Program-made: the position numbers and the translations under genes
The notes under the pieces: model-generated
The model's input: the letters and a program-made list of their open reading frames with translations, nothing else
What the model was told of the DNA's origin: nothing
Database searches by the model: none
Shown here: one piece after another, positions 1,090-54,796 of the stretch
Position numbering within the stretch: position 1 is the first letter of the stretch
Layout: each line of letters opens with the position of its first letter
From: Virgibacillus doumboii
GTDB lineage: Bacteria > Bacillota > Bacilli > Bacillales > Amphibacillaceae
Reading direction: 5' to 3'
DNA: 64,000 nucleotides
Assembly: GCF_902806455.1 (NCBI RefSeq)
Contig: NZ_CADCWQ010000001.1
Coordinates: forward strand, 1,550,001-1,614,000

Positions 1090-2085
1090 ATGAAGTCAAA
1101 GTTTTTATTAACACTTGCAATGTCACTGCTCTTATTTTTCCTGGCAGCTTGTGGCAATGGAGATGGAAGCGAAAGCACATCTGGATCAGGATCTGACGGT
1201 GGTGAAGGAAATGGAGAAGGTGAAGAAACTTCAACAGAAGTAACAGAAGTTATGGTTGATGGATCATCTACAGTATTCCCGATTATGGAAGCTGTTGCCG
1301 AGGAATATCAAAAAGAAAATCCGGATGCCCGGGTTAATATTGGTACATCTGGAAGCGGCGGCGGTTTTGAAAAATTTGCTGCAGGTGAAACACACATCTC
1401 AAACGCTTCTCGTCCGATAAAAGCGGAAGAAAAACAAGCACTTGAAGAAGCTGGTATTGAGTATACAGAATTTGAAGTAGCGCTTGATGGCCTATCTATT
1501 GTTGTTAATAAAGAAAATGACTGGGTTGACCAGTTAACAGTTGACGAACTCAAAAAAATGTGGTCTGAGGGTGGCGGCGTAACTACCTGGGCTGATGTAC
1601 GCGAAGGATGGCCAGAGGAAGAAATTAAGTTCTTCAGTCCTGGGGCAGATTCCGGTACATTCGATTATTTCAGCGAAGTTGTATTTGGTGAAGATGCGGA
1701 AATACGTAAGGATGCGTCTTTATCAGAGGACGACAATGTTCTGGTTCAGGGTGTAATGGGTTCTAAAAATGCCATCAGTTACTTTGGATATGCGTATTAT
1801 CTTGAAAATAAGGACAATTTAAAAGTAGTTCCGATTGTAAACAGTGATGGAGAACCGGTAAAACCCACCCAGGAAACGATCCAATCCGGCGACTATAATC
1901 CGTTTTCAAGACCATTATTCATCTATGTGAAAAATGAAGCAATGCAAAATGAGTCTGTAAATAACTTCACAAAGTATGCACTTGAAAATGCCGGAGAAAT
2001 GGCAGAAGCAGTTGGATATGTCGCTAAATCGGACAGTGCATATGAAGAGGCATTGAAAAAAATAGATGAACTGGCAGGTAAGTAA
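1090..2085 (+). CDS. pstS: Phosphate-binding lipoprotein PstS
   Basis: Extracellular high-affinity phosphate receptor of the Pst ABC transporter; it hands phosphate to PstC/PstA. The protein has 331 residues. Residues 1-20 are a lipoprotein signal peptide ending in LAAC, with Cys21 as the lipidated residue, followed by an acidic Gly/Ser/Glu linker to about residue 50. Phosphate-binding loops are visible as 'DGSSTVFPI', 'GTSGSGGGF', 'ISNASRPI' and 'GADSGTFDYF', the usual PBP-like_2 layout. The start has an AGGGGG ribosome site nine bases upstream. It is first in pstSCAB-phoU and sits right behind the Pho box array. Confidence 0.96.
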   Translation: MKSKFLLTLAMSLLLFFLAACGNGDGSESTSGSGSDGGEGNGEGEETSTEVTEVMVDGSSTVFPIMEAVAEEYQKENPDARVNIGTSGSGGGFEKFAAGETHISNASRPIKAEEKQALEEAGIEYTEFEVALDGLSIVVNKENDWVDQLTVDELKKMWSEGGGVTTWADVREGWPEEEIKFFSPGADSGTFDYFSEVVFGEDAEIRKDASLSEDDNVLVQGVMGSKNAISYFGYAYYLENKDNLKVVPIVNSDGEPVKPTQETIQSGDYNPFSRPLFIYVKNEAMQNESVNNFTKYALENAGEMAEAVGYVAKSDSAYEEALKKIDELAGK

Positions 2086-2108
2086 TAGATTTATGATATG
2101 AACTTGAA

Positions 2109-2160
2109 GCAGGATACTAATAAAGTGAGGGAAGTATATCGTTTCCCCTCACTTTCCTGC
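2109..2160 (+). terminator. Stem-loop between pstS and pstC
   Basis: A core hairpin AAAGTGAGGGAA / TTTCCCCTCACTTT is extended by an outer GCAGG / CCTGC pairing. It lacks a long T-run, so it more likely partially stops transcription or protects the 3' end of the pstS message than acts as a full terminator. Such an element would let the binding protein be made in excess over the membrane subunits. Confidence 0.6.
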
Positions 2161-2215
2161 GTTTTATAAAATCTTTCATTCTACTAAATTGGTAATTTTG
2201 CAGAGGAGTTTCAAT

Positions 2216-3142
2216 ATGGCTGTAAATGTTAAAGACCTCATGAAACAAAAGAAGTCGAATCGATTCTTGCTTCGATTTTCAGAAAAAACAGCACCGGCAT
2301 TTTTCCTGCTGTGTGCAATCATATCTGTACTGACGACAGTAGGTATCGTCGTCACATTATTAGTGGAAACCATAGCATTTTTCAATCGAGTTTCATTTAT
2401 TGACTTTATAACAGGTACTGAATGGTGGCCATTTGGTGAAAATCCGACATTCGGTATTCTTCCGCTAATTTCCGGGACATTATTGATTACAGTTGTTGCA
2501 ATGATTGTAGCAATACCGATTGGATTAGCTTCAGCAATTTATTTAAGTGAATTTGCATCACCTAGAATACGTAAGATTGTAAAACCTGTTTTGGAGGTGT
2601 TGGCAGGTATACCGACAATAGTCTATGGTTTTTTTGCTTTGACTTTTGTTACACCTTTACTTCAACAATTTATCCCCACCCTTCCAATTTTCAATGCGCT
2701 GAGTCCGGGAATTATTGTGGGAGTAATGATTATTCCTATGATTGCTTCCCTTTCGGAGGATGCGATGAGTTCTGTTCCCAATGCAATGAGGGAAGGTGCT
2801 TTGGCAATGGGTTCAACCAGGTTTGAAGTGGCACTTAAAGTAGTTGTTCCAGCGGCGTTTTCCGGAATTATTGCTTCGTTTGTGTTGGGAATTTCCCGAG
2901 CGATAGGTGAGACGATGATTGTAGCAGTGGCAGCCGGGGCAACACCAAAGCTCACGTTGGACGTCACAGAATCGATTCAGACAATGACCGGATATATTGT
3001 ACAGGTAAGTTTGGGTGATGCATCTTACGGGTCCACTACTTACTACAGCATATATGCAGTCGGTATGACGTTATTTGTCTTTACATTGATCATGAATCTG
3101 CTGTCGCAATATATTTCCAGGCGTTTCAAGGAGGAATACTAG
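2216..3142 (+). CDS. pstC: Phosphate ABC transporter permease PstC
   Basis: Membrane subunit of the phosphate importer, 308 residues from ATG 2216. This start is preferred to an upstream TTG (2189) because AGAGGAG lies at 2202-2208, at proper distance. After a Lys/Arg-rich N-terminus there are about six membrane segments, with the ABC-permease EAA loop 'EGALAMGSTRFEVALKVVVP' in the middle and 'SRAIGETMIVAVAAG' after it, both typical of PstC. It is one base from pstA, indicating tight co-expression, and pairs with PstA in the membrane channel. Confidence 0.95.
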   Translation: MAVNVKDLMKQKKSNRFLLRFSEKTAPAFFLLCAIISVLTTVGIVVTLLVETIAFFNRVSFIDFITGTEWWPFGENPTFGILPLISGTLLITVVAMIVAIPIGLASAIYLSEFASPRIRKIVKPVLEVLAGIPTIVYGFFALTFVTPLLQQFIPTLPIFNALSPGIIVGVMIIPMIASLSEDAMSSVPNAMREGALAMGSTRFEVALKVVVPAAFSGIIASFVLGISRAIGETMIVAVAAGATPKLTLDVTESIQTMTGYIVQVSLGDASYGSTTYYSIYAVGMTLFVFTLIMNLLSQYISRRFKEEY

Positions 3143-3143
3143 T

Positions 3144-4022
3144 ATGAATCTGGTTGACAAACAGGAAATTCAAAATGGAATGAAAAAGCGGTTATTCACG
3201 AATCAATTAATCAGACAACTGTTCTTCTTGGCTACTGCTTTTGGAATAGTAGTGCTGGCAACGTTATTGTATCGGATTTTTACAGAAGGAATCGCATTTT
3301 TGGACTGGCAGTTTTTAACTAATTTCGCATCAAGGTTCCCCGAAGAAGCTGGAATTAAAGCTGCTATTGTTGGTTCTATCTGGTTGATGGCTGTTACTGC
3401 TCCTGTATCACTTATCTTGGGTGTTGGAACAGCAATCTATTTGGAGGAGTATGCAAAACAGAATAAATTCACCCGATTTATCCAGATAAATATTTCGAAT
3501 CTTGCAGGAGTACCTTCCATAGTTTTTGGTTTGCTTGGTCTTACTGTTTTTGTTCGTTTAATGGAAATGGGGAGAAGTATAATGGCGGGTGGATTGACGA
3601 TGAGTTTGCTGATTTTGCCTATCATAGTTGTATCTTCGCAGGAAGCTATTCGCGCGATCCCAAAAGAACAGTATGAAGCCTCTTTTGCAATGGGGGCAAC
3701 AAAATGGCAAACTGTTCGGCGTGTTGTATTGCCCGCAGCAATTCCTGGTATCCTGACCGGAAGTATTCTTGCATTGTCACGGGCAATTGGTGAGACTGCA
3801 CCATTATTAATGATTGGTGCAATGTCATTTCTTGCGTATTTACCGGAAAATGTCTGGTCCGCATTTACTGTTCTACCAATTCAAATATATAACTGGACCG
3901 GCAGACCGCAAGAGGAGTTTCATCTAGTAGCATCCGCTGGAATAATTGTATTGTTGTTGATTATGCTGCTTATGAATTCCATTGCTGTTCTCATACGAAA
4001 TAAGTTTTCCAAGCGATTTTAA
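3144..4022 (+). CDS. pstA: Phosphate ABC transporter permease PstA
   Basis: Second membrane subunit of the phosphate importer, 292 residues, about six membrane segments. The EAA-type cytoplasmic loop '[20 protein letters not shown]', followed by '[16 protein letters not shown]', is the PstA signature that contacts PstB. AAGGAGGAATA precedes ATG 3144. It begins one base after pstC and is followed by pstB 17 bases later, so the three form one transcript. Confidence 0.95.
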
Positions 4023-26561: not shown

Positions 26562-26703
26562 AACATACTTCCTTTTTTACAGAGTTGTTATTTTCTCTAC
26601 TTTTTACTTGGTCCATATGCTATAATGGCATTAAATAAAAAATAGAAATTTCAATGTTACATAGTATAACCAAATACATTTGTTTTCATTATGCGAATGA
26701 ATA

Positions 26704-26925
26704 CAAGGGGAGAGTTTACTTTTTAAGTAACGCCGAAGGAGCAAACCAAGTGTGAATCTCTCAGGCAAAAAGACTCTTGTAGGACGCAACTCTGGAGAGT
26801 GTTTATTTTTTGTAAACCACCAACGAAGCAAGCATTTTTTGGAAAGTGTAAACGATTCCAAGTGTGCGCAACTTTCTGGTTGAAGGACAGAGATTTCACT
26901 GGTAAACAGGGGAATCTCTATTTTT
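26704..26925 (+). promoter_or_regulatory. Tandem glycine riboswitch
   Basis: Two glycine aptamers in a row. The first runs from about 26706 ('ggggagagtt', 'gccgaaggagcaaacc', 'gaatctctcaggcaaaaaga', 'ggacgcaactctggagag'), the second from about 26812 ('caccaacgaagcaag', 'cgattccaagtgtgcgcaac', 'ttgaaggacagag'). An expression platform follows: AGAGATT (26889-26895) can pair with AATCTCT (26912-26918) before a T-run. Binding of glycine to both aptamers is known to turn on the gcv operon, so glycine excess induces its own breakdown. Confidence 0.92.
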
Positions 26926-31691: not shown

Positions 31692-34600
31692 ATGTCGATT
31701 GCTGTTGAATCAAAGAATCATATTAACGTGGATGCACTCAATGAAGACATAAATGCATTCCCACAGGTTCATCCAGTTACAGATGACATGAAACTAACAC
31801 ACAAAGGTGTATCCAGGTTAGTAATGCTTGACCGGTATGCATTTAAAGACACTGAAAAGAAAACATTAAAAGAAGGCGACTTTGTCGTTCTGACAGTTAA
31901 GGCGGATCCGAAGTTTCCCGCCCGCGGACTTGGTATTGTGAAATCTATCGATTGGAACAGTAAAGAAGCTGAAATTCAGGTAGATTCAGAGTTTGTATCA
32001 GTCCTTGATAATGAGGATGAGGCATCAACTGGTGTTGTAAGACGTTCGCTTGATGTAATAGACAAGCCATTGGAAGTCTACTATGAACAGATTGCCAAGC
32101 GAAACGCAACAGGGCTCTCCGCTGTGGAGACTACTGAGGCAGGGCAGAAAGAATGGTTTGACAAGTTTAATGATGAGTTGAGCAGTCTTAACTTCATCCC
32201 GGCAGGTCGTGTGTTGTACGGTGCTGGAGCTGACACGGACGTAACTTATTTTAACTGTTATGTAATGCCGTATATTAGGGATTCGCGTGAAGGAATCTCT
32301 GACCACCGCAAGCAGGTAATGGAAATCATGAGTCGGGGTGGAGGTGTAGGAACTAACGGTTCAACACTGAGACCAAGAAATACGCTGGCCAGAGGAGTTA
32401 ACGGAAAGTCATCAGGCTCGGTATCCTGGTTGGATGACATCGCTAAACTGACTCATCTTGTTGAACAAGGCGGATCAAGACGTGGTAAACAAGCGTGCCT
32501 CGTCTATAAATAAACCCCGTGAATTGCTGGAAACTCTTTTATGACCTGTTGGCCACAACGAAACTGGAAACGGTAAGCGTGATGGCTAAAGAACAACAGG
32601 TGGACAAAGACAATCAGCAGCCAAGCTCCGTACGGGAGAAGGTTCAACGACCATCGAAAGCACGTTTTAGACGGAAGTGAGTAGAGTAGAAATCAAGTGA
32701 TTTCGAAGCGCGGGGACACAGACACTGTGTAAGATATGGTCTGAACTTCGGGGTGACCCGGAGAGCTGTCGTAACGAAACAGCAAAACAAATTGGCACAA
32801 ATGATCATGTTAGTGGATTCACATCCGGATATCATTGAATTTATCATCTCAAAAATGCAGAATCCGCGAATCCTTCGTTATTTGATTGAAAATACGGAAG
32901 ATGAACAAATCAAGCGTATGGCACAGGAAAAACTGAAATTCACACCATTGACAGAAACAGAATCAGATCTGTATCAGGGTATATTAAATTATCGGAGTAT
33001 ACCTGGTCAGGGCGGTTTTACCGACGCTGCTATCCGTGAAGCGGACGAGAAACTAAGAACCGGGGGAACATATTCGGTTCACAATCCGGAATTCCTGACC
33101 GGTGCAAATATTTCAGTTTGTATAACGAAGGAATTGATGGAAGCCATTGAAAACGACGAAATGTACGAGCTTCGATTCCCGGATGTGGAAAATTACACAG
33201 AGAAGGAAATGAAAGAGTACAACGAGAACTGGGATAAAGTCGGCGATGTCCGCAAGTGGGAAGAAATGGGCTATGGTGTTAGGGTTTATCGCCGGATTAA
33301 GGCTAAAGAACTTTGGAATCTAATCAATATTTGCGCGACATACTCCGCGGAACCTGGAATATTCTATATTGATAATGCAAATGAAATGACAAACGCCAAA
33401 GCGTACGGCGACCAGGTAGTTGCAACAAACCCGTGTGGTAAAGCGGCATAGTTTGCCTCACGTTAAAAATTGCGGGATAAAGCGGGAAGGCTGAGAGGCT
33501 AATCCGAACCGAAGGCTGAGCTTAAAAATTCAGTCAGGGGCAACGCATAGGTTGGTGAACCTCGAAAGAGAATATAATCCACCCACGAGACCGCAACATT
33601 ACACAGTTATTGGAAAAGGGGTAGGGAGATGAATAGAGGATATGCAGGCTATTACAAAGATTACTATTTAAGAAGTTCTTATGAATATGCTTATGCGAAA
33701 TATCTTGATTATTATTCAATCCCATGGACCTATGAATTAAAAACATTTGATATAGGATATAGAAAATACAAACCAGATTTTTTTCTTTTCGGTCAAAAGA
33801 ATAATATTTCAAATATAGTGGAGATAAAATCAAGAGAGAAATATAGATTGTTGGAAGCAAGGAAAGCATTAGGAGCTATTGAAGAATTATATGCTATTGA
33901 TTGCGAACTAATCTCGTATAATGAGTTATTGACCATGTATAAAAAGTTACCATTTTCTTTAACTTCAACCATAACGGAATGGATAAAGTCTGAAGTTACT
34001 ACAATAAATAAAGCTGCTTATGGTAAATTAAATGGGCACTATAATATTCCTCATACTTTAGAAGCCAAGAAAAAGATTGGTGAACATACTAAGAAACTTT
34101 GGGCAACTGATAATGAAACAAAGAAAAGAATGATTGAAGGGCTAAGGAAGTCCGGATCTATCCAAAAGGGTAAGTTAAAAAAACCGCGGGAAACTAGGAA
34201 TTGTGCAGCTTGTGGAACAGCATTTAATATAATTATTACTTCAAATAAGAAGTATTGTAGTAGAAAATGTGCAGGGAATATTGCTATAAAAAATGCTACA
34301 AATATTTATGTAATAAAACGCGGTGTAATACATGAGGAAATAAAGCAGTATATAATAGAATGGTCAATATCTCATAAAGAAATTGTGCTTACAACTAAAC
34401 TGAATAAAATAAAGCCAACACTAAAGCCGTTATTTGAAGACATCAATACCAAATTTGGGGTAAAGGACTTTAGAGTAATATCAAAGGCTGTTTTTGGAAA
34501 AGACCGAGGTAGAAAAGAGCTAGTAAGATTTATGAAAAAACTGTGTAATGAAAAGGTATGCTGAACTTGCAGGAATTCAACTGTAAGAACTATCGGATAA

Positions 34601-35746
34601 AAAGCCGGTAGGATAACAAAATTGGAACAACCTCTTGCACCATATTCTGTCTGCAATTTAGCTGCTGTTAACTTGGCAGAGATGGCAGACGAAGAAAGTA
34701 AAACTGTTAACTTCGAAAAGCTGAAGCAGACTGTAAAAACAGGTGTACGCATGCAGGACAATGTGATTGACGCAACACCATACTTCCTGGACGAAAACAA
34801 AAAGCAGGCACTTGGGGAGCGCCGTATAGGTCTTGGTGTCATGGGAATGCATGACTTGCTTATCTACTGTGAAACAGCATACGGTTCCAGTGAAGGAAAC
34901 GAACTGGTGGACAGCATCTTTGAAACCATTGCAACAACTGCCTACCGTGAATCTATTAAACTTGCTAAAGAAAAAGGAAGTTTTCCATTTCTTATAGGTG
35001 ACACGAAAGAGGAAACAAAGGAACTAAGACAAGCATTTATCAACACTGGCTATATGAAGAAGATGCCGGAAGATATCAAACAGGATATACTTGAATACGG
35101 CATCCGTAATTCGCACCTGCTTACTGTTGCACCAACAGGATCCACTGGTACAATGGTTGGTGTATCAACCGGGCTTGAACCATATTTTTCCTTTTCTTAT
35201 TACAGAAGCGGGAGACTTGGTAAGTTTATCGAAGTAAAAGCAGATATTGTACAGGAATATTTTGATCGTAACCCAGATGCAGATCAAGAAAACCTACCAA
35301 ACTGGTTTGTAACTGCAATGGATCTAGCACCGGAAGCACATGCTGACACACAATGTGTTATTCAACGCTGGGTCGACAGTTCAATCTCGAAAACGGTAAA
35401 CGCACCGAAAGGCTATACGGTTGATCAGGTGGAAAGTGTTTATCAGCGATTGTACAATGGTGGTGCCAAAGGCGGAACTGTTTATGTCGACGGAAGTCGT
35501 GATACCCAGGTTCTTACGCTTAAGGCTGAAGAGAACTCGCTTGGTGAGCAAACGGAACTCTTTGAAGAAACAGAAAAACCCAAAGTTGTATTAATGGACA
35601 CTATTCAGGAGCTGGACAAAACAAACGTTACCATCGGCTCGGAAGTCGGTGATACTTGTCCGGTTTGCCGTGAAGGCAGTGTGGAAGACATTGGCGGCTG
35701 TAACACTTGTACAAGCTGTGGTGCACAGCTTAAATGTGGATTATAA
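31692..35746 (+). CDS. nrdJ: Adenosylcobalamin-dependent (class II) ribonucleotide reductase, split by two introns
   Basis: Exons are 31692-32486, 32795-33439 and 34625-35746; joined they give an 853-residue protein in one frame. It reduces ribonucleotides to deoxyribonucleotides using a B12-derived thiyl radical, without oxygen. First redox Cys189 in 'YFNCYVMP'; catalytic NPCGE motif with Cys479, split after Gly480 by the second intron; 'GSTGTMVGVSTGLEP' in exon 3; C-terminal zinc-like CxxC pairs 'DTCPVCREG' and 'CNTCTSCGAQLKCGL' that regenerate the active site. Unspliced, each exon hits a stop a few codons into its intron. AAGGAGCG precedes ATG. Paired NrdR boxes suggest repression when dNTPs suffice. 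Confidence 0.93.
32487..32794 (+). ncRNA. Group I intron 1 in nrdJ (308 nt, no ORF)
   Basis: Removing these bases joins 'GGSRRG' to 'AQMIMLVDSHPD', an uninterrupted NrdJ sequence. Boundaries follow group I rules: exon ends in U, intron ends in G. The exon end AGACGTGGT (32478-32486) pairs with the internal guide GCCTCGTCT (32497-32505), with one U-U mismatch and the terminal U-G pair at the splice site. Core elements are visible: 'gaattgctggaaactc' (P3/P4), 'caatcagcagccaagc' (P6/J6-7), 'caacgaccatcgaaag' (P7 5' side) and 'taagatatggtctgaac' (P7 3' side with P3). Subgroup looks IA. No maturase or endonuclease. Confidence 0.92.
33440..34624 (+). ncRNA. Group I intron 2 in nrdJ (1185 nt, with endonuclease gene)
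   Basis: Inserted between Gly480 and Glu481 of the active-site motif NPCG|EQ. Exon ends in U, intron ends in G (34624). P1: exon CGTGTGGT (33432-33439) pairs with GCCTCACG (33455-33462), again with a single U-U mismatch and the terminal U-G. Core pieces 'aaaattgcgggataaag' and 'gctaatccgaaccgaag' lie before the internal gene, and 'aggtatgctgaacttgcagg' (P7 3' side) just after it, partly overlapping its last codons. The gene occupies the peripheral loop between them. Subgroup uncertain, probably IA as for intron 1. Confidence 0.92.
33629..34564 (+). CDS. Intron-encoded homing endonuclease, PD-(D/E)XK type
   Basis: 311 residues. N-terminal nuclease: Glu19 in 'SSYEYAYAKYLDYYSIPW', Pro49-Asp50 in 'YKPDFFLFG', and Glu65-x-Lys67 in 'IVEIKSREK', the order expected of a PD-(D/E)XK active site. 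Residues about 137-172 ('HTLEAKKKIGEHTKKLWAT', 'KKRMIEGLRKSGS') resemble the NUMOD3 DNA-binding repeat of intron endonucleases. A CxxC...CxxxC cluster ('NCAACGTAF', 'YCSRKCAGN') near 191-216 suggests a zinc finger, then a basic tail. Would cut intronless nrdJ alleles to spread the intron. TAGGGAG precedes ATG. A/T-richer than nrdJ. The EDxHD class is an alternative, but no such His-Asp pair is seen. Confidence 0.85.
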   Translation: MNRGYAGYYKDYYLRSSYEYAYAKYLDYYSIPWTYELKTFDIGYRKYKPDFFLFGQKNNISNIVEIKSREKYRLLEARKALGAIEELYAIDCELISYNELLTMYKKLPFSLTSTITEWIKSEVTTINKAAYGKLNGHYNIPHTLEAKKKIGEHTKKLWATDNETKKRMIEGLRKSGSIQKGKLKKPRETRNCAACGTAFNIIITSNKKYCSRKCAGNIAIKNATNIYVIKRGVIHEEIKQYIIEWSISHKEIVLTTKLNKIKPTLKPLFEDINTKFGVKDFRVISKAVFGKDRGRKELVRFMKKLCNEKVC

Positions 35747-35888: not shown

Positions 35889-36308
35889 TTGCCTACCCCA
35901 AGTATGGAAGATTACATTGAACAAATATATAATTTAATTGAAACAAAAGGTTATGCCCGTGTTTCTGACATTGCAGAAGCATTAATGGTTCATCCATCAT
36001 CAGTGACCAAAATGGTACAGAAACTGGATAGGGATGCGTACTTAAATTATGAAAAATACAGAGGATTTGTCCTGACCTCCAAAGGCAAAAAAATTGGAGA
36101 GCGATTAGTATTCCGTCATGAGCTTTTGGAAGATTTTCTTGAAATCATTGGTGTTGACAGTGACAAGATCTATAAAGATGTGGAAGGCATCGAACATCAT
36201 CTCAGTTGGAATTCGATAGACCGTATCGGAGATTTGGTACAATATTTCAAGTCAGATAAAGAACGTATTGATGAATTGAGAAAAATTAAACAAGCCGGTG
36301 AAAAATAA
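35889..36308 (+). CDS. mntR: Manganese-responsive repressor MntR
   Basis: DtxR-family repressor of Mn uptake genes, 139 residues from TTG 35889 ('[16 protein letters not shown]'). Mn ligands are in place: Asp8 ('MEDYIE'), Glu11, His77, Glu99, Glu102 and His103 ('[13 protein letters not shown]'). The winged helix '[25 protein letters not shown]' is nearly that of B. subtilis MntR, which also has the opening '[12 protein letters not shown]'. The ribosome site is weak (GAGTTGAT). Confidence 0.95.
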
Positions 36309-51709: not shown

Positions 51710-52594
51710 TTGCATCATAATTTGGATGAATTTATCAATGAGAACAAAAGGATCATCGAGGAAGAAATGAAAAGGCATATGTTGCGATTAACCATTCCAG
51801 ATCAGTTAAAAAAATCCATGTTGTACTCACTGGAAGCAGGGGGGAAAAGGCTAAGACCAATTCTGCTGCTGGCAAGTTTTAAAGCATATGGCAACGATAT
51901 TAAGAAGGTATTGTCAAGTGCAGTTGCTCTTGAACTCATCCATACCTATTCATTGATACATGACGATTTGCCGGCGATGGATAATGATGATCTAAGACGG
52001 GGGAAGCCAACAAATCATATAATGTTTAAAGAGGCAACCGCAATATTGGCAGGCGACGCCCTATTAACCTATAGTTTTGAACTTGTAATGAATGATCCAG
52101 AATTAACTGACAGCGAGAAGATTTATATTACAAAATTGCTGTCAGAGGCAAGCGGACCCAAAGGAATGGTGGCCGGTCAAATACTGGACATGGAAGCAGA
52201 GGAAAAAGAAATTACCCTTGAAGAATTAGAAACCATTCACAAACTTAAAACCGGTGAATTACTCAGGTTTGCAATTAAATCAGGTGCTTATGCTGGTGGT
52301 GCAACAGATAAACAGATTAAACATATGGATGAATTTGCGTACTATCTGGGGTTAATATTCCAGGTCCAGGACGATATATTGGATGTTTCAGGCGATCCTG
52401 AAAAACTCGGCAAGCCTGTTGGAAGTGATCAATCAAATCAAAAGAACACGTATCCAAAACTGCTTGGGCTTGATGGAGCGATTGAGAAAAAACAATTCTA
52501 CGTAAACAGGGCAAAGAAAGCTCTGGAAAACGCAGGAGCTGATAATTCTTACCTAATGTATCTAACTGATTATTTCAGCAATCGTGATTACTAG
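51710..52594 (+). CDS. ispA: Farnesyl diphosphate synthase
   Basis: Condenses isopentenyl and dimethylallyl diphosphate to farnesyl diphosphate for quinones, undecaprenol and sporulation lipids. 294 residues from TTG 51710 (AGGAGGAAG upstream). First aspartate motif 'LIHDDLPAMDNDDLRRGKP', second 'IFQVQDDILDVSGDPEKLG'; 'EAGGKRLRPILLLAS'. Last gene of the nusB-folD-xse-ispA run and immediately upstream of the OLE RNA, the position known for ole loci. Confidence 0.95.
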   Translation: MHHNLDEFINENKRIIEEEMKRHMLRLTIPDQLKKSMLYSLEAGGKRLRPILLLASFKAYGNDIKKVLSSAVALELIHTYSLIHDDLPAMDNDDLRRGKPTNHIMFKEATAILAGDALLTYSFELVMNDPELTDSEKIYITKLLSEASGPKGMVAGQILDMEAEEKEITLEELETIHKLKTGELLRFAIKSGAYAGGATDKQIKHMDEFAYYLGLIFQVQDDILDVSGDPEKLGKPVGSDQSNQKNTYPKLLGLDGAIEKKQFYVNRAKKALENAGADNSYLMYLTDYFSNRDY

Positions 52595-52682: not shown

Positions 52683-52691
52683 TGGTATAAT
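52683..52691 (+). promoter_or_regulatory. Extended -10 promoter of the OLE RNA
   Basis: TGGTATAAT (TGn plus TATAAT at 52686-52691) lies about a dozen bases before the first base of the RNA's closing stem. The -35 region is weak, which extended -10 promoters tolerate. Processing from the ispA transcript is also possible. Confidence 0.6.
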
Positions 52692-52702
52692 TAAAACATA
52701 AT

Positions 52703-53301
52703 AGGAATGGTGCAGTATTCTAGTCAGTCCTCCGTTTCTGAAGGCGGGCCTAAAAATCCGCCAAAGGGCACATCGATGAAGTTCCTTGTGTTGGCTTGAG
52801 GCGCCCAGCCTTGGGTCAGTGCTGGGAGTTAAGGTTTTCGGGCGATCCACAAAGGCATGTGGGCGTTGACCCGATTACCGCGGAGGCCCATATCTGTAGT
52901 GATGACTAAGCCTAGGAATCATTATGGAATGGGGTATGAACCTGTACAATGGGGTAAGGGACTCCTTATTGACAGCGTAGCCTGCCTTGAGTGGTAGTGA
53001 GGGGATTAGAGCCGTAATAACTAGTCAGGTGGCCACTGACTCGGTTATTTTTATCTCTATGAAATCAACACTGCAAAAGAGGCTAGGGATCGGTTAAAGA
53101 CTGTTGAGGAAATCTCCTAGACTGTTCCAATGACATTTAAAAGGGATTATGGTGTGGACTAAGTGGTAATCCAGTCCAGCTTTGGGAAACCGGGCTGAGA
53201 TGGTTTTAAAGGGGAACCGCCTTAATGGTAACATTGGGTAGCCATCTGGGAAAACCTACTGGACCTAAGCCGCAATTTTAACCTTTTAAGTGACCATTCC
53301 T
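52703..53301 (+). ncRNA. ole: OLE RNA (ornate, large, extremophilic RNA), about 600 nt
   Basis: Non-coding block of about 600 bases between ispA and a four-helix membrane protein gene. The ends pair perfectly: AGGAATGGT (52703-52711) with ACCATTCCT (53293-53301). The inside is G-rich, full of short stems (for example GGCGGGCC...; CCAGCCTTGGGTCAGTGCTGG; GTCAGGTGGCCACTGAC), with stops in all frames. Size, gene context and neighbour protein are those of the OLE RNA first described in Bacillus halodurans and other extremophilic or anaerobic Firmicutes. OLE RNPs assemble at the membrane and matter for tolerance to cold, ethanol and Mg2+. Assignment made from memory of context and terminal pairing, not by covariance search. 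Confidence 0.92.
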
Positions 53302-53328
53302 AACTACATATTAAGTTAGAGGTTGAAA

Positions 53329-53907
53329 ATGAAATCACAAATAAGAAAATCTTTAAAATTCAGTTTAGTTATAGCCGTTATCACTTTTGTGCTGGCGGCT
53401 ATTTTTTCAATCGTATCTTCCTCTGTATTGAGTGAAGTTGTTTGGATAGCTGGATTAGTTATTGTGTTTATAATCTTACTTATCGGTGTTGTGTTTGACA
53501 TGCTAGGAATCGCCTCCACGGCGGCACAGGAGGCTCCATTCCACGCCATGGCAGCTGAAAAAGTAAAAGGTGCAAAAGAGTCTGTAATTATTATTCGAAA
53601 TGCGGATAAATTTGCCAGTTTTTGTAACGATGTAATCGGGGACATATCCGGAATAGTAAGTGGTACGGCGTCTGGTATAGTTGTGCTGCAAATATCACGC
53701 GAATTAGGACAGGGTGATGGCTCGGCTGTATATCTTGCCTTATCTGTTTTATTAACTGCACTGGTTGCTGCATTAACAGTAGGTGGAAAAGCGTTGGGTA
53801 AATTTCTTGCAATTAACGCTTCAACAAAGATAATATTTTTTGCCGGTAAGGTTATTGCTTTTATTGAAGGCAATTTTAAAGTCAGGTTACTGCCCAGAAA
53901 TAATTAG
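53329..53907 (+). CDS. oapA: OLE-associated membrane protein OapA
   Basis: 192 residues from ATG 53329 (AGAGGTTGA upstream; in-frame TTG at 53323 overlaps it). About four membrane segments: 'SLVIAVITFVLAAIFSIV', 'VVWIAGLVIVFIILLIGVVF', 'GIVSGTASGIVVLQI' and 'YLALSVLLTALVAALTVGG'. The stretch 'FDMLGIASTAAQEAPFHAMA' resembles the DUF21 membrane domain of CNNM/CorC-type Mg transporters. In known OLE loci the gene right after the RNA encodes OapA, which binds the RNA and anchors it at the membrane. Starts 27 bases after the RNA's closing stem. The OapB and OapC partners are not in this window. Confidence 0.9.
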   Translation: MKSQIRKSLKFSLVIAVITFVLAAIFSIVSSSVLSEVVWIAGLVIVFIILLIGVVFDMLGIASTAAQEAPFHAMAAEKVKGAKESVIIIRNADKFASFCNDVIGDISGIVSGTASGIVVLQISRELGQGDGSAVYLALSVLLTALVAALTVGGKALGKFLAINASTKIIFFAGKVIAFIEGNFKVRLLPRNN

Positions 53908-53977: not shown

Positions 53978-54796
53978 ATGGCTAAAAAACGGTTAGATGT
54001 ATTATTAGTGGACAGGAATCTGATTGAAACAAGAGAAAAAGCAAAACGTGTTATAATGGCAGGGCTTGTTTTTTCGGAACAAAATCGATTAGAAAAGCCT
54101 GGGGGAAAGGTTGATGAAAATATCCCAATAACAATAAAAGGAAATCTAATTCCATACGTTGGCCGGGGAGGCTTGAAGCTGGAAAAGGCATTAGATCATT
54201 TTTCGATTTCACTTGAAAATAGAATAATGATTGATGTCGGTTCATCTACAGGCGGCTTTACGGATTGTGCACTGCAAAACGGTTTACAACTTTGTTATGC
54301 AATTGATGTTGGATATAATCAACTGGACTGGAAATTAAGAAATGATGAACGGGTTGTTGTTATGGAAAGAACCAATTTTCGTTATGTAACTCCCGATATG
54401 ATTAACCATGGTGTGCCTGATTTTGCCACGATAGATGTATCATTTATTTCTTTAAAATTAATACTTCCGGTCTTAAGGCAACTTCTGCACCAGGGAAGCG
54501 ATATTGTTGCGCTAATTAAACCGCAATTTGAAGCCGGGCGGGATCAGGTGGGAAGAAAAGGGATTGTACGTGATAAATCTGTTCACATGGACGTTCTGCG
54601 AGAAATTCTAAGCTTTGCAAAACAGGAAGGATATCAATTACTTGATTTAACTTATTCACCGATAACCGGCGGTGATGGCAATATTGAATTTTTGGTGCAT
54701 TTGGGTTGGAAAACCGCAAAAGAAGGAAAAAGCTTTACTGATATCGAATTACAGTCAGTAGTCGAAAATGCTCATCAAGAACACAGAAAGAATTGA
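53978..54796 (+). CDS. yqxC: TlyA-family rRNA methyltransferase YqxC
   Basis: 272 residues: an N-terminal S4 RNA-binding domain ('KKRLDVLLVDRNLIETREKAKRVIMAG' region), then an FtsJ-like SAM methyltransferase domain with 'MIDVGSSTGGFTDCALQNG', 'FATIDVSFISLKLILPVL' and 'ALIKPQFEAGRDQVGRKGIV'. TlyA proteins 2'-O-methylate rRNA. Usually follows dxs in Bacillus; here only 70 bases separate it from oapA. Confidence 0.93.
   Translation: MAKKRLDVLLVDRNLIETREKAKRVIMAGLVFSEQNRLEKPGGKVDENIPITIKGNLIPYVGRGGLKLEKALDHFSISLENRIMIDVGSSTGGFTDCALQNGLQLCYAIDVGYNQLDWKLRNDERVVVMERTNFRYVTPDMINHGVPDFATIDVSFISLKLILPVLRQLLHQGSDIVALIKPQFEAGRDQVGRKGIVRDKSVHMDVLREILSFAKQEGYQLLDLTYSPITGGDGNIEFLVHLGWKTAKEGKSFTDIELQSVVENAHQEHRKN

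Follow-up and report, generated by a model that had tools for sequence, protein, structure and literature searches.

How a large structured RNA and a small membrane protein work together is the question raised by one locus in a 64,000-nucleotide stretch of the Virgibacillus doumboii genome (NCBI RefSeq assembly GCF_902806455.1, contig NZ_CADCWQ010000001.1, forward-strand positions 1,550,001 to 1,614,000). We call this whole stretch the window and number positions from its first letter. The original prediction, made from the letters alone, held that a stem-rich block of ~600 bases between ispA and the gene for a four-helix membrane protein is an OLE RNA standing beside oapA. OLE ranks with the largest structured RNAs of bacteria, and no biochemical job has yet been established for it. 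We find that the OLE identity of the block is near certain, and that the locus is a full-length OLE locus of the ordinary sort, adding one more routine example to a published class; of 119 genomes sampled from this family, 89 have OLE. Its added value lies in the comparative tests that relatives offer rather than in the locus itself.

Scanning with the Rfam OLE model (RF01071) by cmscan placed the ole gene at 52691..53313 on the forward strand, with a match that covers model positions 1-616 of 616 at 516.4 bits (E 1.4e-148), where the gathering score of the curated model is 50. The stem-bounded part of the RNA spans 52703-53301 (599 nt) and is closed by the 9-bp P1 stem, in which 52703..52711 pairs with 53293..53301; both this stem and the 27-base gap to oapA are as originally described, with correct coordinates. 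The block is the sole OLE match in the genome (3.9 Mb, estimated completeness 99.99%) and folds 4.6 standard deviations better than shuffled sequence. Scans for a promoter and a terminator at the locus gave results at chance level.

A scan of named genomes with OapA as query turned up no fewer than 547 relatives, of which the top 80 were retained. These 80 come mostly from Virgibacillus, Lentibacillus, Halobacillus, Gracilibacillus and kin, the highest OapA identities among them (84-85% of the matched segment) belonging to Virgibacillus subterraneus and V. litoralis. The OLE alignment holds 65 of the resulting 81 sequences, namely the window and 64 of the 80 loci; of the 16 loci outside it, three failed the motif anchor, yet are OLE by cmscan, and 13 others were left out. 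RNAalifold returned 185 consensus pairs from this alignment, the same one on which they were scored, which favours the structure, and 97.7% of the cells of these pairs form. As many as 100 of the 185 pairs changed on both sides, against a mean of 61.3 in shuffled alignments and with none of 500 shuffles as high, in a test that the relatedness of the sequences inflates. Sliding the partner by 1-3 columns lowered the double-changed pairs to 33-47 and the paired cells to 37.5-45.6%. The original prediction had named a missing covariance-model hit, or pairs that do not covary with other OLE RNAs, as grounds for its own rejection; neither occurred, and the block shows the covariation expected of the OLE class.

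RNAalifold recovers three elements that the Rfam structure line leaves wholly unpaired: the P1 closing stem, the P2 stem and a 13-pair P3/P3.1 stem (stem names were assigned here from the text of published papers). The inner seven pairs of P1 are 99.6% paired across the 65 sequences, and three of the seven changed on both sides. In the long stem, the 5' strand at 52725..52739 (P3, 52725-52729; P3.1, 52732-52739) pairs with the 3' strand at 53086..53103 (P3.1, 53086-53093; P3, 53099-53103), and for 10 of its 13 pairs at least one sequence has both bases changed. The J4a/5 region, where the class is expected to have the OapC kink turn, is highly conserved in the alignment.

In published cryo-electron microscopy, OLE is a dimer whose P4 loops join through A-A pairs, with further loop contacts around P5/P6/P7 and a P9 kissing loop (PMC12286853; PMC12265935). 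The corresponding sequence features are all present in the window RNA. The P4 hairpin (52743..52762), published as dimer bridge B1, carries the A-rich loop CCUAAAAA, identical in 62 of 65 sequences. Around its loop the P5/P5.1 stem (52782..52828) holds CGCCCAG, identical in 64, and the GCC within it is complementary to the GGC of the P6.1 loop, a published kissing contact; P6/P6.1 (52833..52879), also the published bS21 site, reads CAAAGGCAUG around its loop, with the P6.1 stretch identical in 61. The loop of the P9 arm (53031..53034), a published loop-loop dimer contact, is the self-complementary GGCC in 64 of 65, the exception being a sequence with a shortened arm (L081). The window RNA thus appears equipped for dimerisation by an A-rich L4, L5.1/L6.1 complementarity and a symmetric P9 loop.

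The partner gene, oapA (53329..53907, forward strand), begins 27 bases past the stem-bounded end of the RNA, in tandem with it, and encodes a CNNM-like four-helix membrane protein of 192 amino acids; an alternative TTG start at 53323 would give 194. A DxxxD motif (D101, D105) is invariant in 56 aligned proteins. The predicted model of OapA has four long helices and a CNNM-like fold by structure comparison, the match spanning model residues 37-176 with an extra N-terminal helix in OapA; the modelled fold resembles magnesium transporters. Sequence searches gave less: nothing credible among solved structures, and no Pfam match at E 0.001, a threshold that PF01595 falls short of. MpfA is recognised by the CBS and CorC domains that follow its CNNM domain, and by this mark OapA, at 192 residues, is no MpfA.

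We next asked how OapA is likely to sit in the membrane. Lysine and arginine residues were counted on each side of 36 OapA proteins, with cuts that we set near the model helix ends; an OLE RNA lies upstream of every one of the 36 genes by cmscan or motif search, L004 included. In each protein the charge is one-sided: the N-terminus, middle loop and C-terminus together carry a mean of 11.9 basic residues (minimum 9), and the two opposite loops a mean of 0.19 (maximum 1). The basic side is also the longer one (74 versus 18 positions in the window protein), corresponding to densities of ~0.16 versus 0.01 per residue. Basic residues mark the cytoplasmic side in the insertion of membrane proteins (the positive-inside rule), and a single membrane orientation is therefore predicted, in which the OapA sites at P2 and P4a should share one side. 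In the superposition on CorB, the modelled C-terminus of OapA falls where the membrane domain of CorB ends. Since the last membrane helix of CorB leads to cytosolic domains, this superposition predicts the same orientation as the charge bias.

A published model places P3 of OLE across the membrane and puts the P2 and P4a sites for OapA on either side of it, so that some OapA must face in and some out (PMC12265935). That paper mentions a basic cluster on the cytoplasmic face of OapA; the charge-orientation argument was not found in it, and the terms "positive-inside" and "topology" are absent from its main text. A literature search combining OapA, OLE RNA and topology returned only PMC12286853. 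The charge asymmetry argues against OapA on both membrane faces, but would be compatible with an RNA that spans the membrane and has no OapA outside. It turns the membrane-crossing question into one for a standard topology assay.

The original prediction had proposed looking for oapB and oapC elsewhere in the genome, and both were found. OapB is a 112-residue KOW open reading frame between adk and infA, matching structure 7k9b at E 1.1e-32, and OapC (YbxF) an 83-residue L7Ae-type frame between rpoC and rpsL, with all four neighbours named by reading; the best structure matches of OapC are YbxF itself (3v7e, E 5e-19; 4lck, E 7e-19). The genome also encodes bS21, whose binding site on OLE can be compared across relatives. 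In Halalkalibacterium halodurans, P6 contains CCUCCU, matching the 16S rRNA tail; mutants that alter this mimic and keep the pairing still bind bS21, while inversion of conserved G-C pairs strongly lowers binding (PMC12054373). The mimic is absent from P6 of the window RNA, and CCUCC and CCUCCU are each found in P6 of one of the 65 sequences (CCUCC in L038). By contrast, G-C pairs of the P6 region at alignment columns 145-147/175-177 and 139/183 are invariant in 65 of 65, with invariant GGG/CCC pairs flanking a variable middle of P6; the correspondence to the published mutants is by region. With the mimic missing from 64 of 65 sequences and the G-C pairs kept, natural variation fits the mutant results better than it fits the mimic, a motif proposed for bS21 that this group does not conserve. 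CCUCC also occurs in the 5' strand of P3/P3.1 in 45 of 65 sequences, where we attach no function to it.

Across the 119 family genomes, OLE and OapA occur in the same 89 and are missing from the same 30, with 10 negatives in each absence list taken by subtraction. CNNM-domain matches average 1.53 per genome with OLE and 2.40 without (p 4e-6). Counted by genus, with three mixed genera left out, the values are 1.56 (37 genera with OLE) versus 2.41 (6 without; p 0.009). The relationship is not exclusive, as 80 of the 89 genomes with OLE have at least one CNNM match. An OLE-CNNM anticorrelation has been published previously (PMC11332333), and the lower CNNM count with OLE repeats it inside one family. 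Genus g21 illustrates the absence: in five OLE-negative genomes (L119, L125, L127, L131, L133) ispA and tlyA lie ~30 bp apart by tblastn ends, and two others (L123, L135) keep both ole and oapA. Searching 16 of 22 OLE-negative ispA loci (L119-L144 minus L123, L135, L137 and L138) for OLE remnants with cmscan at E up to 1 found none, a negative to be read with caution, as are those below for a second OapA family, because this E-value mode missed a group I intron of the window that gathering mode reports. Mobile carriage of OLE was considered and set aside, the window RNA giving one partial match in plasmids. That record (L156; NZ_AP023421.1, 200851-203944) combines a partial OLE-like DNA match with a CNNM-domain gene and dxs-tlyA-argR-recN; it is a 504-kb Pusillibacter faecalis record typed as a conjugative plasmid and may be a chromid or a mis-assigned piece of chromosome.

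Genomes of genus g19 hold a second OapA-like gene far from ole, which we call OapA2. It is intact in four of eight genomes (L149, 4643-5239, and L150, 4537-5241, minus strand; L151, 4804-5415, and L152, 4724-5320, plus strand), at 43-47% identity to the window OapA; two copies carry stops (L153, L154), and none was found in the remaining two genomes. All four intact genes adjoin a frame read as helD; one of these frames was checked and scores 1068 bits as HelD, the motor that recycles RNA polymerase. Each of these genomes has one OLE match overall. Seven loci were scanned for a hidden OLE beside OapA2 (cmscan, E up to 1), and none was found; likeness among the OapA2 upstream regions is, by our reading, largely T-box leaders and repeats. 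Beside a T-box leader and on the same strand, L151 has group II intron matches (1577-3756).

A database search with OapA2 gave 2820 matches. Among the best 120, the first 27 stand at 59-95% identity and come from Virgibacillus, Pseudalkalibacillus, Pontibacillus, Lentibacillus, Gracilibacillus and others; the later ones are nearly all at 44-54%, except for a partial match at 60%. A tree of 56 proteins included 13 of the 27, and these form a clade (100/100) with five intermediates, apart from the 36 ole-linked OapA, with a warning from the tree programme that long branches meet at the OapA2 clade. The same tree groups the OapA of a record named Roseburia sp. 1XD42-34 (L022, NZ_QWLJ01000020.1) with Virgibacillus and Oceanobacillus, and the name is probably wrong. 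The ratio of nonsynonymous to synonymous substitution rates among the four intact OapA2 genes is ~0.06-0.10. OapA2 is thus a diverged, ole-unlinked subfamily under purifying selection; the paralogue passages of PMC11332333 concern MpfA and OapC, not OapA. OapA2 keeps both DxxxD and the basic middle loop, and it may therefore bind the resident OLE just as well as it may act free of RNA. As an inverted partner for two-orientation models it was rejected, since its charge bias runs in the same direction (mean 16.6 versus 1.46 basic residues) and reaches at least 13 in 13 of 13 proteins. Mobile carriage of OapA2 was likewise dismissed: plasmids and phages gave a single weak match apiece, and viral contigs gave none.

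What, then, might the RNA do? We propose that OLE and OapA form one membrane device, in which the RNA would stand in for the regulatory domains that a divalent-metal transporter of the MpfA/CorC type has in the cytoplasm, a proposal to which we give about an even chance. It draws on the identity and covariation of OLE, a CNNM-like OapA with no room for CBS or CorC domains, the genes for OapB, OapC and bS21 in the genome, the co-occurrence of OLE with OapA, and the fewer CNNM matches in genomes with OLE. OLE would dimerise through its conserved P4, P5.1/P6.1 and P9 loops, bind OapA dimers at their basic, cytoplasmic side and gate Mg2+ or Mn2+ export in answer to stress from ions, cold, alcohol or carbon, while OapB, OapC and bS21 would alter the shape of the RNA; ole and oapA are presumed to be co-transcribed by analogy with a report from H. 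halodurans. OLE could instead be mainly a stress-signalling scaffold, as in the published bTOR idea, with OapA acting only as a tether and the output being capture or release of bS21, ArgR or other factors. bS21 indeed binds OLE, and losing bS21 reproduces the ole phenotypes in cold and in ethanol (PMC12054373); the window genome has bS21, OapB and OapC, together with a frame read as argR that is the second gene past oapA, and the G-C pairs of the bS21 region are the invariant ones. However, a transporter-like modelled fold with an invariant DxxxD exceeds the needs of a tether, and the near-universal lack of the 16S-tail mimic removes the feature that had suggested ribosome mimicry. We regard the scaffold as possible, with the balance against it.

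The model of an integral membrane RNA, in which P3/P3.1 crosses the bilayer, domain 2 lies outside and OapA is bound on both sides (PMC12265935), gains from the 13 consensus pairs of P3 and P3.1, close to the published 12 and largely covarying. The charge of OapA, one-sided in 36 of 36, would instead mean one-way insertion with the P2 and P4a sites on the same side, and the placement of its C-terminus on the end of the CorB membrane domain agrees, if the known CorB topology applies; we judge this model unlikely. It is very improbable that the block is a cis-acting structured leader of the oapA mRNA rather than a trans-acting RNA. Its position would suit a leader, 27 bases 5' of oapA in the same 5'-3' order, and the only terminator-like site lies inside the P9 arm (in a scan at chance level), but in length, covariation and loop conservation it matches published OLE RNA, and work in H. 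halodurans reports protein binding by that RNA as well as pull-down results and mutant phenotypes (PMC9723947, PMC12054373). Returning to the proposed membrane device, a more specific version has OapA inserted one way with all its sites cytoplasmic, so that OLE need not cross and is the RNA version of a transporter regulatory domain, while OapA2 may work without OLE as a natural protein-only control. This version is speculative, and we would sooner expect it to fail than to hold; such an OapA2 would let RNA-dependent and RNA-independent functions be separated.

The ole and oapA genes lie between ispA, for farnesyl diphosphate synthase (51710..52594; NCBIfam NF045485, 411.5 bits), and tlyA (53978..54796; TIGR00478, 301.5 bits), both on the forward strand, and the order xseA, xseB, ispA, oapA, tlyA holds in 80 of 80 loci. 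The gene dxs, for 1-deoxy-D-xylulose 5-phosphate (DXP) synthase, is often immediately beside ole and oapA (PMC10898510). Using the 636-residue frame of L010 as query, we found dxs between oapA and tlyA in 53 of the 80 named loci (interval 1930-2135 bp), beginning at the position that tlyA occupies in the window, and missing there in 27 (interval 21-321 bp). dxs was not found anywhere in the window genome, where the one DXP synthase match scores 20.2 bits, below the cut-off of 21.2; HMG-CoA reductase, a marker of the mevalonate route, is present (E 6.7e-117). With dxs called at 280 bits or more, 38 of the 119 genomes have dxs only, 76 HMG-CoA reductase only, 5 both and 0 neither. A link between OLE and the isoprenoid route was tried and rejected: OLE occurs in 33 of 43 genomes with dxs and 56 of 76 without (Fisher p 0.83), counted over related, not independent genomes in which no genus is mixed for dxs. 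A literature search found nothing joining OLE RNA with mevalonate, and one paper joining it with dxs. Since OLE persists where dxs is gone, dxs is unlikely to be a partner that it must have; OLE is not dependent on DXP synthase, though the genes are often neighbours. In one genome (G099, contig C7, 424045-426184) two strong DXP synthase matches lie side by side near ole, an apparent duplication of dxs.

Other features of the window lie further off. An iron/manganese-dependent repressor, MntR-like by reading (35889-36308; Pfam PF01325, PF02742), ~16 kb from ole, is of possible interest given the published metal-ion phenotypes of OLE. A vitamin B12-dependent ribonucleotide reductase gene (31692-35746; first exon by NCBIfam) is interrupted twice, first by the group I intron already mentioned (32449-32763, 65.7 bits) and again at ~33452-34621 by an insertion that splits the gene after NPCG and contains a 311-residue open reading frame without a Pfam match; the Rfam scan called no RNA family in this second insertion. 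Tandem glycine riboswitch aptamers (26697-26892; 74.2 and 32.7 bits) lie upstream of genes read as a glycine cleavage operon.

Set beside known systems, the locus keeps closely to type. Like the OLE RNA of H. halodurans and the cryo-electron microscopy dimers of Clostridium, the window copy is of the full-length kind, with the dimer loops kept and oapA directly 3' of it. Known OLE loci have accB-accC-yqhY-nusB-folD-xseA-xseB-ispA upstream and tlyA-argR-recN-spoIVB-spo0A downstream, and so does the window, where accB, nusB, folD, xseA, xseB, argR and recN were named by reading of their frames. Two differences stand out: the usual OLE locus has dxs beside oapA, whereas the window, like 27 of its 80 named relatives, does not; and the CCUCCU mimic of the H. 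halodurans P6, a species feature and not a class-defining one, is lacking from the window RNA. OapA shows no departure from its family, adjoining ole with four long helices, DxxxD and a CNNM-like modelled fold. Compared with the CNNM transporters MpfA, CorC and CorB, in which CBS and CorC/HlyC domains follow the CNNM domain, OapA is too short for either.
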